The notes under the pieces are model-generated. The model searched no databases and had not been told where the DNA came from. It saw only the letters and a list, made by a program, of their open reading frames with translations. From assembly GCA_016207515.1 (NCBI GenBank), contig JACQPN010000021.1:1-64000 (forward strand): a DNA stretch of 64,000 bases, given 5' to 3'. Source of the DNA: Euryarchaeota archaeon (lineage in GTDB: Archaea > Thermoplasmatota > SW-10-69-26 > JACQPN01). Every line of letters starts with the position of its first letter. Within the stretch, counting starts at the first letter, position 1. Positions 37,557 to 43,275 of the stretch are shown here, piece after piece. The translations under genes were made by a program, and so were the position numbers.

Positions 37557-37633
37557 CGACGAGGAGAGAATGACCCCATCGCTGGAATTCTCGGATTCTA
37601 CGGTGTAACGATCGGCCAATCAGGGTGCGCTGG

Positions 37634-39268
37634 ATGAGCAAGGAAGACAAGCGTGGGGAGAAACGGACTGGCAGAGTGGCAGACAGCATCAGCGAGGCGA
37701 CCGGGGACCCCCGCGTGCGGAACATGAGCGACGAAGAACTCGCCGCATACGTCAAGGAGAACTTCTCGGAGCGGGAAGCAGAACTCTCGCGCCTTGAACG
37801 CCAGATGAAGGCCCAGACGACCGAGGTCTCCGAACTGCAGGCCGTCGTGAAGGCCTACGAGGACAAGTTCAACCAGATCAAGGAGCCACCACTTCTTTCG
37901 GGCTACGTGCTGCGCCTACACGGCGACGACCTGGGACAACGCGAGGTCTCCGTGGCGAACGGCACCCAAGTGCTCAAGGTCAACACCGGAAACCTCGAAA
38001 AAAACGACTTGGAGCAGGGCCAGTACGTGTGGCTCCACCCGAAGACGTTCGCGATCATCGCGGGAAGCCAGCATCACGAGCAGGGGATCGTCGGGAAAGT
38101 CGTCGAAGTGATGGGCGGGAAGATCGTCATCAGCCTCGGCGACGGGTTCGAGAAGAAGGTCGTCGAACTCGACCCCGCGGTCGCAGAGGACATCAAGATC
38201 GGCTACGAGGTGTCGCTTCTCCCGCCCACCCTTGAGATACTCGAGGTGCGGCCGTCCTCGGAGATCCGCGACCTGTTCCTCGGCGAAAAACCGAACGTGC
38301 GCTATGCGCAGATAGGCGGCCTCGAAGAGGTCCTCGAACGCATCCGCGACGTCGTCGAACTCCCGTACAAGGAACCGGAGCTATTCAAGAAGATCCGTTT
38401 GAAGGCGCCACGAGGGGTCCTCCTCTACGGTCCGCCCGGGTGCGGAAAGACGCTCATCGGGAAGGCCGTCGCCACCGAGAACGATTTCACTTTCTTCAAC
38501 GTGAAAGTCGCCGACATCCTCTCGAAATGGGTCGGCGAATCGGAGAACATGATCAAGGCCATCTTCAGGAAGGCCCGTGAGAACGCGCCGAGCATCATCT
38601 TCTTCGACGAGTTCGACGCCCTCGGGACGACCCGGGGCCAACAGGACACGGCTGGTGTGCACAAGAACATCATCGCGCAGATACTCTCCGAGATGGACGG
38701 CATCGTCGCTTTGAACGACGTCTACGTCTTCGGGGCGACGAACCGGCCGGACATGATAGACCCGGCGCTTCTACGCCCCGGCCGCTTCGACGAGGTCATA
38801 GAGCTACCGAGGCCGAACCGCCAAGGTGCCCGGGCAATACTAGACATCTACCTCGCCCCCGACCTGCCACTCCAGAAGGCCTACGTGGACCAGTTCGGAA
38901 GCAAGGAGAAGGCTCTCGAAGCCCTCAAGGAAAAGGTCATCTCCGAACTCTACGACGAAGACAAGTGGATCGAGTGGAAACTCGACGTGGAAGCAAAAGA
39001 GAACGTGAAGACGATCAAGAGGAAGGACATCGTCTCGGGCGCACTCATCGAATCCATCGTGACGACGGGCAAGAAGAACTACGTGAAACGCGTGCTCCAA
39101 TACCCGAAAGGAAGCCCACAGCGCGACGCGGAGGGCCTCGCCCCCGAGGACCTGGTGAAGGCCGCTGAAGAGGAGTCGAAGGAGCACGCGCTCGTCGAGT
39201 CCTCGGTCTACCAGAAGCGCCAAAGGGAGCGCGCAAGGTTCAGGCCTGAAGGCGTCGAAGTGATGTAA
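37634..39268 (+). CDS. ARC/Mpa-like proteasomal AAA ATPase
   Basis: Ring ATPases of this type unfold substrates for the 20S proteasome. Residues below count from the in-frame GTG 37625, three codons before the preferred ATG. An N-terminal coiled coil (about 37-85) is followed by two OB-like beta domains (90-147 and 154-210) and an AAA domain: Walker A GPPGCGKT (269-276), Walker B IIFFDEFDAL (324-333), sensor ATN (371-373), arginine finger RPGR (384-387). Two OB folds, GPPGCGKT and a long C-terminal insertion (KWIEWKL... DIVSGALIESIV) match bacterial ARC/Mpa rather than archaeal PAN, which has one OB fold. The C-terminus (GVEVM) lacks an HbYX motif. A PafA homologue lies 1.3 kb downstream. Confidence 0.88.
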   Translation: MSKEDKRGEKRTGRVADSISEATGDPRVRNMSDEELAAYVKENFSEREAELSRLERQMKAQTTEVSELQAVVKAYEDKFNQIKEPPLLSGYVLRLHGDDLGQREVSVANGTQVLKVNTGNLEKNDLEQGQYVWLHPKTFAIIAGSQHHEQGIVGKVVEVMGGKIVISLGDGFEKKVVELDPAVAEDIKIGYEVSLLPPTLEILEVRPSSEIRDLFLGEKPNVRYAQIGGLEEVLERIRDVVELPYKEPELFKKIRLKAPRGVLLYGPPGCGKTLIGKAVATENDFTFFNVKVADILSKWVGESENMIKAIFRKARENAPSIIFFDEFDALGTTRGQQDTAGVHKNIIAQILSEMDGIVALNDVYVFGATNRPDMIDPALLRPGRFDEVIELPRPNRQGARAILDIYLAPDLPLQKAYVDQFGSKEKALEALKEKVISELYDEDKWIEWKLDVEAKENVKTIKRKDIVSGALIESIVTTGKKNYVKRVLQYPKGSPQRDAEGLAPEDLVKAAEEESKEHALVESSVYQKRQRERARFRPEGVEVM

Positions 39269-39272
39269 TCTC

Positions 39273-40010
39273 GTGACCGCACCCGCAGGGGTTCACGACG
39301 CACTCGCTCGGGAGATTTTCGCTTGCCGCCAGTGTCGCGCCGAATCATCCAATATTGCGACCGCCGAGGCTCGCCGAGACTTCGCAGAAGCCGTCGGCGC
39401 TGGCGGCGTCGGAAATCTTCGGGAGCCCCAGATTATGGACGGCCCCGATCATTGTGACATTTTGGTTGTAAGCATTAACCCCCGTCTTCACATGGGTTCG
39501 GCCCCAGTCGTAGATGAGGAAGAATACATTCGCGAAAGGGCGCGCACGGCCGCGAAGGATCCCGAGGGACCATTAGACAAATTCGTTGAGGCGGTCCAGC
39601 GGGTCCTTCCTGAGGGTTTCAGCTGGTGGAACCGCGAAAACAACACGGTTGGGAACACAAGAATCTGCAAGTGCCCCACAGCAAAGTGGACGGGGAAGTT
39701 TGCTTGGGCAGCCGAGGCTTGCGGTGATCGGTTCTTCGCGCGGGAGATTTCAATGCTGCAACCACGCGCTATCTTGATTACTGGGAAGGCCGAGTGGCAA
39801 ACGATGCTTTCGGTTTTCGGAATCACGACTGACCAGTTCGAGGACACGGCAGACCTCTTACCACTGATGGGGCGGATCGACGGCCGGGACATTCGCATCG
39901 TCGCAGCGCATCATCTCACAAGAAAACTGACACTCGATCCAGTCTATTTGGAGCGGGTCAAGGCACTGCTTACGATGGCTATTTCGGCGCGGAGCTGGCC
40001 GCCTACATGA
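39273..40010 (+). CDS. Uracil-DNA-glycosylase-superfamily-like protein with Fe-S cysteines
   Basis: The 245-aa product begins 4 nt after the ATPase stop, so it is probably in the same transcript. It looks like a divergent family 4/5-type UDG. Cysteines are spaced for a 4Fe-4S cluster (C18 and C21 in CRQC; C134 in KCPTAKW; C150), with a motif-1 equivalent ILVVSINP (63-70), the FFAREISMLQPRAILITG helix-strand (154-171) and a late His motif (AAHHLT, 211-216). The usual GEAPG motif is replaced by SINPR, so glycosylase activity is uncertain. Its role beside a proteasomal ATPase is unclear. Confidence 0.65.
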   Translation: MTAPAGVHDALAREIFACRQCRAESSNIATAEARRDFAEAVGAGGVGNLREPQIMDGPDHCDILVVSINPRLHMGSAPVVDEEEYIRERARTAAKDPEGPLDKFVEAVQRVLPEGFSWWNRENNTVGNTRICKCPTAKWTGKFAWAAEACGDRFFAREISMLQPRAILITGKAEWQTMLSVFGITTDQFEDTADLLPLMGRIDGRDIRIVAAHHLTRKLTLDPVYLERVKALLTMAISARSWPPT

Positions 40011-40163: not shown

Positions 40164-40191
40164 TTTTACAGTAGTGTAAAAAATGTTTACA
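40164..40191. promoter_or_regulatory. Overlapping palindromic operators over the wHTH start
   Basis: TTTTACA-GTAG-TGTAAAA (40164-40181) is a perfect palindrome. The same TGTAAA half-site also pairs with TTTACA (40186-40191) around AAATG. The three half-sites begin at 40165, 40175 and 40186, about one DNA turn apart, and cover the predicted transcription start and the ATG. This is the layout of a repressor site, presumably for the wHTH protein encoded here. Confidence 0.65.
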
Positions 40192-40512
40192 ACCATCTTC
40201 GGCGACACCCCGAACGCGCGTATCCTTGGGTTCCTCAAGGACCACGCCGAGTTCGACTACACGATCTCGGAGATTGCCCGTAACTCGGACGTGTCCCGCC
40301 CGACGACCTACAAGGTCGTCGACGAGTTCGTGAAGAACGGGATCCTCATCGAGACGAGGAAGGTCGGCATCAGCTCGTTTTACAAGCTCAATCTCGGGCA
40401 TAACGCCGTGAAGTACTTCATGGACATGGACGAGGGGGTGCTCGCCCCTTCGCCGGGCGGCAAACAGCGTCGTCGACTCCCACAGGACAGGTCGCGGGGG
40501 CAGTCACGCTGA
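40183..40512 (+). CDS. Winged helix-turn-helix transcriptional regulator
   Basis: The 109-aa protein has a compact winged-HTH: a first helix (ARILGFLKDH), HTH 'YTISEIARNSDVSRPTTYKVVDEFVKNGIL' region (about residues 25-55) and wing strands (IETRKVGISSFYKLN). A basic disordered tail follows (after about 85, rich in Arg/Gln). It resembles small archaeal repressors of the MarR/ArsR/Rrf2-like fold class without a clear ligand domain. TGTAAA palindromes cover its own start, suggesting autorepression. The PafA homologue follows 22 nt downstream in the same operon, so this regulator probably controls tagging capacity. Confidence 0.85.
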   Translation: MFTTIFGDTPNARILGFLKDHAEFDYTISEIARNSDVSRPTTYKVVDEFVKNGILIETRKVGISSFYKLNLGHNAVKYFMDMDEGVLAPSPGGKQRRRLPQDRSRGQSR

Positions 40513-40534: not shown

Positions 40535-41815
40535 ATGAGGCCGATGATCCAGGGTTCGGAGCACGAATACACGCTCTACAGCCAGAAGATGAACCCGATC
40601 GGTGTCGACCCGCACAGGTTGGCCCTTGAGATACTCCGGGGCTCCGACCTAGCGCTTCAAGGGGAATACCTGAAGGACGGTGCTCGCGCGTATTTCGACG
40701 TCGGCCACTTGGAGATCTCGACTCCGGAGGTCGACAATTTCATGGACCTCGTGCGATGGGAGAAGGCCGGTGAGAAGATCGTCGACCTCCTTCGTTTGAA
40801 ACTCGAGAGCGACCACGGCGTCAAGATCAACGCGTACAAGAACAACACCGACCCGGACGGCGTCTCCTATGGGAGCCACGAGAACTACTGTGTCTCCCGT
40901 CAGTTGGCCTTCCCGGACACTTTCATCAAGAAGCTCGCCCCCCACCTCATCTCGCGGATAATCTACTGCGGGTCGGGCGACATCATCGAGCAGAAGTACG
41001 TGCTCTCGCCGTGCGCATACCTCACGAGCCAGATGGTCTCCGGAGGCAACCTCTACAACACCGGGGTGCTGCACACGCGCGACGAGCCCCACGCAGACCC
41101 GTCCCGCTTCAGGCGCCTCCACGTGATAATCGGCGACGCGTTGATGAGCGAGGTCTCCATCATGCTTCGCTCCTTCACGACCAGCATGGTGCTTCGCGGT
41201 ATGGAAGAGGGCCGTTTCGAGGACGCCCCCGAATTCGCGGAGCCGCTACGTGACCTTTGGAAGATGGTGGAGACACTCGACCCTCTGAAGTGGAAGTTCG
41301 AGATGAAGGACGGCAAGAGCCAGTCTCCGATGGACGTGCAGCGCTATTATATGCGCCACGTGGAGGACATGATAGATACGCAGGAGGAGAAGGAGGCCTT
41401 CGCGCTCTGGGAATGGGTCCTTGAGAAACTCGAGAAGGGGGCGATGAAGGACCTCGCCCGCAAAGTGGAGTGGGCGGCGCGCCTTTACGAGGTGGAGCGC
41501 CAGATCGTTCTCAAGGGACGCGCGGAGAACGTGGAACTCGCCGCCGTGAAACAGTACTCGGAACTGAACGAAGGCCGCAGCCTCTACTATAAGCTGCAGA
41601 ACGAAGGGAAGATCGACCGCGTCATCACGGACAAGGAGATCAAGTTCGCGATAAACAACCCGCCTCCGAACACCAGAGCCGCCGCGAGGGTCAAGATCCT
41701 CGACGAGTACGAGGCGGCGAGCGTCGATTGGGCCGAGATACGGATCATGACGGAGGACGGCGGTTCGGAGACGATAGAGCTCCCGGACCCGTACTCGACG
41801 AAGGTGCCCATATGA
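40535..41815 (+). CDS. pafA: Pup-ligase (PafA/Dop family) homologue
   Basis: PafA activates the C-terminal glutamate of Pup with ATP and joins it to substrate lysines; Dop deamidates or removes Pup. The 426-aa product keeps the family signature throughout: metal-binding GSEHEY (Glu9, Glu11), YFDVGHLEISTPE with catalytic-base Asp55, YKNNTDPDG-VSYGSHENY (101-118), TRDEPHAD (181-188), RRLHVIIGD (193-201) and the C-terminal region with VDWAEIRI. DVG rather than DHA, and the lack of a long loop insertion, point to the ligase branch. SD GGGGAGGAG precedes ATG 40535. Archaeal occurrence is unexpected. The specific modifier is not identified. Confidence 0.92.
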   Translation: MRPMIQGSEHEYTLYSQKMNPIGVDPHRLALEILRGSDLALQGEYLKDGARAYFDVGHLEISTPEVDNFMDLVRWEKAGEKIVDLLRLKLESDHGVKINAYKNNTDPDGVSYGSHENYCVSRQLAFPDTFIKKLAPHLISRIIYCGSGDIIEQKYVLSPCAYLTSQMVSGGNLYNTGVLHTRDEPHADPSRFRRLHVIIGDALMSEVSIMLRSFTTSMVLRGMEEGRFEDAPEFAEPLRDLWKMVETLDPLKWKFEMKDGKSQSPMDVQRYYMRHVEDMIDTQEEKEAFALWEWVLEKLEKGAMKDLARKVEWAARLYEVERQIVLKGRAENVELAAVKQYSELNEGRSLYYKLQNEGKIDRVITDKEIKFAINNPPPNTRAAARVKILDEYEAASVDWAEIRIMTEDGGSETIELPDPYSTKVPI

Positions 41816-41931
41816 CGCGCATGAGGATGAGAGCCTTGCAACAGGGGTCCACCGCAACGCTCAAAGGGTCACAAGCGGAATGGGATATGACGCAAGGGAC
41901 GAGACACCAAAGCACGCCAGCGAGAGACTAA
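41812..41931 (+). CDS. Possible 39-aa hydrophilic protein overlapping pafA stop
   Basis: ATG 41812 overlaps the pafA stop as ATGA, the geometry of translational coupling, and opens a 39-codon frame (MTRMRMRALQQGS... ending TPARD). The peptide is polar and basic with no hydrophobic core, so it is probably disordered. It does not end in the Gly-Gly-Glu/Gln expected of Pup. It ends 1 nt before the 60-aa ORF. It could be a real small protein or merely a translated spacer. Confidence 0.35.
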   Translation: MTRMRMRALQQGSTATLKGSQAEWDMTQGTRHQSTPARD

Positions 41932-41932
41932 G

Positions 41933-42115
41933 ATGACCGAGACAAGACTGAAGAAGAAACAGAAGAAAGACAAGACGTCCGAGGTCAAATTCGACGTCGG
42001 CGAATCGTTCGACGCCGCCTCAGCGAAGGACAAGGACTTCGACCTCGACCTCGAGGCCAGCCGGTTCCAGGGAAAGAAGGGACAGGCCGGCACGAGGAGC
42101 AAGTCGAGCGGCTGA
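41933..42115 (+). CDS. 60-aa highly charged disordered protein, candidate modifier
   Basis: The frame starts with a Lys-rich block (KKKQKKDK), has an acidic centre (FDVGESFDAAS, KDKDFDLDLEA) and ends with RFQGKKGQ-AGTRSKSSG. Size, charge and lack of hydrophobic core resemble Pup and UBact, small disordered modifiers ligated by PafA-type enzymes, and it sits directly behind the PafA homologue. However, the encoded C-terminus is Gly, not the Glu/Gln needed for ligation. Internal KKGQ is loosely like the Pup end. Processing, or a modifier elsewhere in the genome, would be required. Existence as a gene is likely; function is speculative. Confidence 0.6.
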   Translation: MTETRLKKKQKKDKTSEVKFDVGESFDAASAKDKDFDLDLEASRFQGKKGQAGTRSKSSG

Positions 42116-42264: not shown

Positions 42265-43275
42265 ATGGTGGAAACGGCCGAGGCTACGTCTTCTCCCCCA
42301 ACGCCCATCGACTTCAACAGCGACGTGAAGCCCGCGCTCTTCATGGCGGTCCTTTTTCTCGTTGCGCTGTCGCTCGCGGTCGCGATCACGCCCATCTATG
42401 TCGATCAGGGCCTCCAGCTTACCGACGATCCGCAGGACGTCGTGAATCCTGCGATATACCTCGTGTTCGTGATCGCCTTCACGGCCGTCATCCTCGTGAT
42501 TGTGAGACTCGGCCGTGAGAAGGTCGTGAAGTACATCATCCTGGGCGCGGTGTTCACGTCCATCAATTACGTGTTCTGGCCGCTCCTGAACCTCGTCACA
42601 CGCGCAGAGGTCGCTGGAGTGAGCATCGCCCTTGCGGTTTCCATCGTCCTCTCCGCCGCGATGGTCATTCTATTGTACTACTACCCCGAGTGGTGGGTCA
42701 TCGACGCGGTCGGGGTAGCCGTCGCGGCCGGTGCCGCGGCGCTCTTCGGGATCTCGTTCGGGCTCTTGCCTTCGATCCTGCTCCTTGCCGGTTTCGCCAT
42801 CTACGACGCGATCGCCGTCTATCGCACGAAGCACATGATAGACCTCGCCGACTCCGTCCTGGACATGCACCTGCCAATAATGCTCGTGGTGCCGAAGTCG
42901 AAGGGCTATTCGTTTCGCAAGGAAGCGGCGAGGTTGAAGGAGAAATTGAAGGAAGGAGAGGAGCGCGACGCCATGTTCATGGGGCTCGGGGACATCGTGA
43001 TCCCGGCCGTGCTCGTGATATCGAGCATCCGGTTCCTGCCGATGTTCCCGGCGAACGCGGCCGACGTCTTCGGCATCGCGCCTTTCATGTTCGTCGCACT
43101 CGGGACGACGGTCGGGATATTCGCCGGTTACGCGCTCCTCATGTACTTCGTGTTTTCGGGCCGTCCACAGGCTGGCTTGCCGAGCCTCAACGGTGGAGCG
43201 CTGGTCGGTTTTCTCCTGACTGCCGTCCCATTATATGGTCTAGGGCCGCTCACCAGTTTCAACCTAGGATTCTGA
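42265..43275 (+). CDS. Presenilin/signal-peptide-peptidase-like intramembrane aspartyl protease
   Basis: The 336-aa protein has about nine membrane helices and the catalytic motifs of family A22: YD (AIYDAIAVY, Asp181), GLGD (MGLGDIVIP, Asp243) and a PAL-like site reading PSL (about 306-308). A basic cytoplasmic loop (210-235) lies between the two Asp helices, as in archaeal PSH proteins. Such enzymes cleave membrane-protein helices, for example leftover signal peptides. ATG 42265 is fixed by the TATA box. The exported-protein load of this genome gives many possible substrates. Placement after the tagging module may be functional or chance. Confidence 0.9.
   Translation: MVETAEATSSPPTPIDFNSDVKPALFMAVLFLVALSLAVAITPIYVDQGLQLTDDPQDVVNPAIYLVFVIAFTAVILVIVRLGREKVVKYIILGAVFTSINYVFWPLLNLVTRAEVAGVSIALAVSIVLSAAMVILLYYYPEWWVIDAVGVAVAAGAAALFGISFGLLPSILLLAGFAIYDAIAVYRTKHMIDLADSVLDMHLPIMLVVPKSKGYSFRKEAARLKEKLKEGEERDAMFMGLGDIVIPAVLVISSIRFLPMFPANAADVFGIAPFMFVALGTTVGIFAGYALLMYFVFSGRPQAGLPSLNGGALVGFLLTAVPLYGLGPLTSFNLGF

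Follow-up and report, generated by a model that had tools for sequence, protein, structure and literature searches.

Does an archaeal locus that carries a gene of the PafA/Dop family also encode the small protein that such an enzyme would attach to other proteins? The question arises in the window, by which we mean the whole stretch of 64,000 nucleotides that was analysed (contig C21 from G000, a genome of 2.67 Mb). A first-pass annotation had singled out two tiny hydrophilic ORFs behind the pafA-like gene as candidate protein modifiers, and we found both where it had placed them, with the 60-aa ORF starting at 41933, one base past the end of the 39-aa ORF. The longer product is Lys-rich and acidic and poorly hydrophobic, as had been described (15 K+R, 11 D+E, 17% V/I/L/M/F/W/Y and no Cys). 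The features of the locus are as follows.

37625..39268, + strand: Mpa/ARC-like proteasomal ATPase, 547 aa (TIGR03689, 350 bits; Foldseek; ortholog distribution)
39273-40010: ORF between the ATPase and HTH genes (weak uracil-DNA glycosylase superfamily match, below cut-off)
40183..40512, + strand: small HTH protein, encoded immediately before pafA (weak HTH matches)
40535..41815, + strand: PafA/Dop-family enzyme gene (pafA-like), 426 aa (PF03136, 310 bits)
41812-41815 (start, in ATGA) to 41931 (end): 39-aa ORF, overlapping the TGA stop of the pafA-like gene
41933..42115, + strand: candidate Pup-like modifier, 60 aa (conserved in 7 genomes, purifying selection, nested with pafA)
42083..42085, + strand: codon of Gln51, the residue of the invariant KGQ that is predicted to react (K49, G50 and Q51 in 7/7)
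42086..42112, + strand: C-terminal tail AGTRSKSSG, nine residues (length 9 in 7/7)
42265-43275: presenilin-type membrane protease, downstream of the modifier (NF041679 over cut-off)

Conservation of the 60-residue protein and its co-occurrence with the enzyme

We recovered the 60-mer in seven genomes, where it measures 59-60 aa from the start codon, and the six other proteins are 31-68% identical to that of the window. It lies directly behind pafA in five of the seven (G000, G001, G003, G005 and G029). A profile built from these five adjacent proteins also matched one in G002 and one in G004, each with E < 1e-26; in G002 the modifier gene and pafA are 1.8 kb apart, and in G004 they share a contig at a distance of about 130 kb. 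The 60-mer is retained with the enzyme even where the two genes are not adjacent. Over the whole ORF, pN/pS was below one in all 21 pairwise comparisons (0.22-0.99), of which the pairs with G029 are near saturation and carry little weight. From its sequence conservation, we conclude that the 60-mer is a genuine gene that relatives have kept.

The 39-aa ORF fared differently. Its overlap with the pafA stop, ATGA at 41812-41815, is as first annotated, and it occupies a gap between pafA and the 60-mer that is 117 nt long in the window. The corresponding gap measures 8 nt in G003, 11 nt in G001, 4 nt in G029 and 2 nt in G005, too short for this ORF in all four of the other adjacent loci, and we therefore rejected it as a gene or modifier. 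The proposal that the tiny ORFs are candidate modifiers stood for the 60-mer, through its conservation, its nesting with a ligase-family gene and its KGQ motif, and fell for the 39-mer. In G002 and G004, a small ORF directly precedes the detached modifier gene (L031 17248-17493 and L036 7530-7871); by eye it resembles a ribbon-helix-helix regulator.

We took a census of 389 genomes of the window's phylum, taken to be Thermoplasmatota from a named relative, SW-10-69-26, which PMC9287336 describes as a Thermoplasmatota archaeon, and found an enzyme of the Pup_ligase family in 8. The modifier profile matched 7 of the 389, every one of them among the 8 with the enzyme, and a profile search of the 381 enzyme-free genomes returned no 60-mer. 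In the eighth enzyme genome, G006 (75% complete), the contig breaks off within the pafA gene. The co-occurrence of enzyme and modifier gave a Fisher p of 3e-14, a value that overstates the evidence because the genomes are kin. The window's class supplied six of the modifiers and another class the seventh, that of G029, which limits their independence.

The surroundings of the locus contain archaeal markers, a FEN1-type nuclease and the archaeal presenilin (NF041679 over cut-off). Homologs of the small HTH protein lie upstream of pafA in five other genomes, and from its sequence this protein is a probable regulator of the locus. A scan for promoters and terminators gave signal at background. 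Two public records, L027 (titled Proteobacteria) and L028 (titled Halobacteriales), contain this archaeal locus and correspond to genomes of the window's order, and their titles are probably wrong.

The KGQ motif and the comparison with Pup

The window's 60-mer runs from a Lys-rich start through an acidic middle to Lys-Gly-Gln and a nine-residue tail, a charge pattern that is weaker in the G005 and G029 proteins. It ends in KSSG and contains KKGQ, as the first-pass annotation had it; the Gln of KKGQ is residue 51, nine short of the C-terminus. That annotation had suggested aligning homologous loci and reading the C-terminus in each. The 60-mer next to pafA proved to be conserved in relatives, with K49, G50 and Q51 invariant and the tail behind Gln51 exactly 9 aa long in 7/7 modifiers; Gly53 and Arg55 within the tail are also invariant. 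When the modifiers and four Pups were aligned with Gln51 as position 0, which is Gln or Glu throughout, they also had in common a Gly at -1, a basic side chain at -3 and an aromatic one at -6.

At 59-60 aa, within the 50-90 aa expected of a Pup, predicted to be disordered (model pLDDT mostly <40) and next to a PafA-family gene in five of seven genomes, the protein has the general features of a Pup. Its C-terminus is not G[EQ], with 9 residues following KGQ in 7/7. The relevant passages of PMC2588565 state that every surveyed Pup ends in Gly-Glu or Gly-Gln, and that Pups outside Actinobacteria, that of Rhodopirellula included, end in G[EQ]. An hhalign comparison of the 7 modifiers with 4 Pups did not reveal significant homology, and none of the Pfam or NCBIfam families, including Pup (PF05639), matched the 60-mer. 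A canonical Pup gene elsewhere in the genome would have told against the 60-mer as modifier. The Pup profile, which matched its C. glutamicum positive control, gave no match over cut-off in any of the 8 pafA genomes; the best candidate (E 0.036) lay inside a 253-aa frame and was rejected. On present evidence, the 60-mer would work like Pup without detectable sequence homology to it.

The PafA/Dop-family enzyme and its proteasomal partners

The enzyme matched PF03136 (Pup_ligase) with 310 bits against a gathering score of 25. It also matched the PafA equivalog model TIGR03686 (253 bits, under the cut-off of 551) and the Dop equivalog model TIGR03688 (251 bits, under the cut-off of 492), and all 7 archaeal enzymes matched both models. 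In a 12-sequence tree, six full-length archaeal enzymes grouped at 100/100, apart from PafA and Dop; this tree was rooted at its midpoint, three of its references are partial, and it used six of the seven archaeal sequences in the alignment, omitting the fragment L035. By this phylogeny, the archaeal enzyme is outside the group of PafA plus Dop. Its predicted fold matches Dop and PafA with Z of 33-41, the next fold being at Z 21.

We examined the residues expected of an active enzyme. The family's GhExE signature is given in the relevant part of PMC2588565, and the window's enzyme has the catalytic and Mg-ligand residues G7-S8-E9-H10-E11, R51, Y53, D55, E60 and H115. Positions aligned with Dop R90, Y92, D94, E99 and H155, whose roles are described in a section of PMC8599861, are conserved in all archaeal sequences that cover them; L035 starts later than these positions. 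The Dop-loop was not found in the archaeal enzymes, in which only about 45 residues precede strand beta-2, and the match to the Dop profile (TIGR03688) begins at position 74.

The site of PafA R201 and Dop R221 is Arg in all six references, the only ones compared, and Thr176 in 7/7 archaeal enzymes, in a region read as the alpha-loop. The structural account in PMC8599861 describes PafA R201 as forming a weak salt bridge to the Pup C-terminus. Thr in place of Arg is what would be expected if no free carboxylate sits there, an indirect argument.

Four genomes that are 95-98% complete (G000, G001, G002 and G005) contain one family member each, so that a separate Dop, which could deamidate the tag or take it off again, is missing. 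An AF2 model of enzyme and modifier as a single tethered chain (13 aligned sequences) folded the enzyme and left the modifier at pLDDT ~24-36 over most of its length, without docking in the enzyme groove; as this is a weak test, it counts neither for nor against docking. A scan of viral contigs with the enzyme alignment confirmed none of 45 stretches. L081 6045-10918 (MT835496.1, filed as Bacteriophage sp.) carries, one after another, sequence of an AAA ATPase, Dop, a Pup whose end is KGGQ, and PafA; instead of a phage with pupylation, it may be an actinobacterial contig misfiled as phage.

The ATPase encoded upstream of pafA in the window is best described by TIGR03689 (pup_AAA; 350 bits over 50-522, the best PAN model scoring 279), short of that model's equivalog cut-off of 505. 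The top 30 Foldseek matches to its predicted structure were all Mpa, and the model shows a helix at 36-84 and, ahead of the AAA domain, ten strands, both read from a low-confidence model (mean pLDDT 58). Of 60 relatives, 5 have an ortholog, and each of the 5 also has a PafA-like enzyme; the gene lies near pafA in G001, G002, G004 and G029. We did not find it in G005 (95% complete), G003 (76%) or G006 (75%). HbYX is the usual C-terminal motif for proteasome docking. It is absent from the C-terminus of this ATPase, which reads GVEVM in the window and MVG in G029. The link to degradation is weak because the ATPase is missing from G005 and lacks HbYX.

All 8 enzyme genomes contain 20S proteasome genes, the window genome having two proteasome-family genes. 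Six of these 8 genomes, the window's included, have a separate PAN that exceeded its cut-off; PAN in G006 is a fragment just below the cut-off, and G003 showed no full PAN.

A candidate mechanism, its alternatives and its significance

The analysis shows conservation, co-occurrence, gene linkage, the motif, the fold and the catalytic residues; that the 60-mer is conjugated, through which residue, what becomes of its tail and whether degradation follows are inferences. The 60-mer probably serves an archaeal pupylation-like system as its protein modifier, attached by way of Gln51 whether or not the tail is first removed. The single PafA/Dop-family enzyme would bind the C-terminal part of the 60-mer, activate the Gln51 side chain with ATP, and then couple Gln51 to a lysine on the protein to be tagged. 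Where the linked Mpa-like ATPase exists, it might thread the conjugates into the 20S proteasome, a step that we hold weakly.

If Gln51 were used in place, the product would be a branched conjugate in which the tag keeps its own nine-residue tail. We tentatively favour this use over prior removal of the tail, at somewhat under even confidence. The relevant text of PMC8599861 describes enzymes of this family as phosphorylating or cleaving at the glutamate or glutamine side chain, so a free C-terminus would not be strictly needed. Further, an engineered Dop carrying PafA residues ligates Pup-Gln directly, using ATP, as reported in a section of PMC7947786, which makes a single enzyme that uses Gln without a separate deamidase chemically reasonable. 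The same paper reports tagging of cellular proteins in E. coli by PafA together with Pup-Glu. A one-enzyme system of this kind, in which an internal Gln is joined directly to lysines with no need for a deamidase, a free C-terminus or tail removal, is a conceivable arrangement that we rate a little below an even chance.

The main alternative keeps the modifier and changes the fate of its tail: a protease would cut after Gln51, and the KGQ end would then be deamidated or used directly. Such an end would be a near-canonical Pup end, and the constant tail length and invariant Gly53 and Arg55 are as expected of a cleavage site. Against it, we found no locus-linked protease across relatives, save the membrane presenilin-type protease in 3 genomes, and the Arg that contacts the free Pup C-terminus is Thr in 7/7. 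We consider this precursor form of the core proposal, with Gln51 used after tail removal, less likely than use in place, at well under even confidence. Homologs of the presenilin gene lie on the same side of the modifier in G001 and G003 as well.

The remaining explanations would leave the 60-mer without a role as a protein tag. As a small charged protein encoded behind the enzyme gene, predicted to be without stable structure and without sequence homology to Pup, it could bind the PafA-like enzyme or the Mpa-like ATPase non-covalently, as a regulator or adaptor. This is improbable given that KGQ is invariant with the spacing of Pup and that the known substrate of this enzyme family is just such a small protein. 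Less probable still is that the enzyme acts as a gamma-glutamyl ligase, adding a small amine to a 60-mer that is the precursor of a peptide product. More distant members of the fold do make gamma-glutamyl small molecules, and the enzyme falls outside PafA plus Dop, but Dop and PafA are its closest folds by a wide margin (Z 33-41 versus 21) and its gene is linked to that of an Mpa-like ATPase. Although the ORF is short and sits in a compact locus, a chance or hitch-hiking ORF deserves almost no credence: it is under purifying selection, it is kept away from pafA in two genomes, and a second class (G029) has it. We rejected this last explanation on the strength of pN/pS < 1 in 21/21 pairs.

We compared the proposed modifier system with those already described. 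It resembles actinobacterial pupylation (PF05639, with PafA, Dop and Mpa/ARC) in having a small, charged, probably disordered protein beside a PafA/Dop-family enzyme, an Mpa-like ATPase nearby, Lys-Gly-Gln with the same spacing, and a 20S proteasome in the cell. It differs in that the host is an archaeon, the Gln lies nine residues from the end in 7/7, and the modifier has no profile or hhalign homology to Pup. In addition, one enzyme takes the place of PafA plus Dop, and it lacks the Dop-loop and has Thr for the Arg that contacts the Pup C-terminus. SAMP and other beta-grasp modifiers are likewise archaeal protein tags linked to the proteasome, and they use a C-terminal Gly-Gly and E1-type chemistry. 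The 60-mer, in contrast, has no terminal Gly-Gly and sits with an enzyme of the glutamine-synthetase fold. UBact is a Pup-like tag found outside Actinobacteria; its profile (NF033388) gave no matches in 10 genomes and was silent on its control too. By its published description, the planctomycete (Rhodopirellula) system also has a single member of the family, with kinship to PafA and to Dop alike, and the corresponding passage of PMC2588565 gives that ligase four transmembrane segments. A search of the open-licence PMC literature, with subscription papers and preprints outside its scope, returned nothing that describes a PafA/Pup-like system for Thermoplasmatota.

Taken together, the best reading of these sequences is an archaeal pupylation-like locus whose tag would not end at its likely reactive residue. 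Pupylation has been described as bacterial, and a related system would here be present in archaea that also have PAN and the 20S proteasome. The position of the enzyme outside both PafA and Dop bears on the origin of pupylation and on whether the split between ligase and deamidase is derived. If the attachment residue is indeed internal, the range of substrates open to such enzymes would be different, and this could be put to use in protein labelling.
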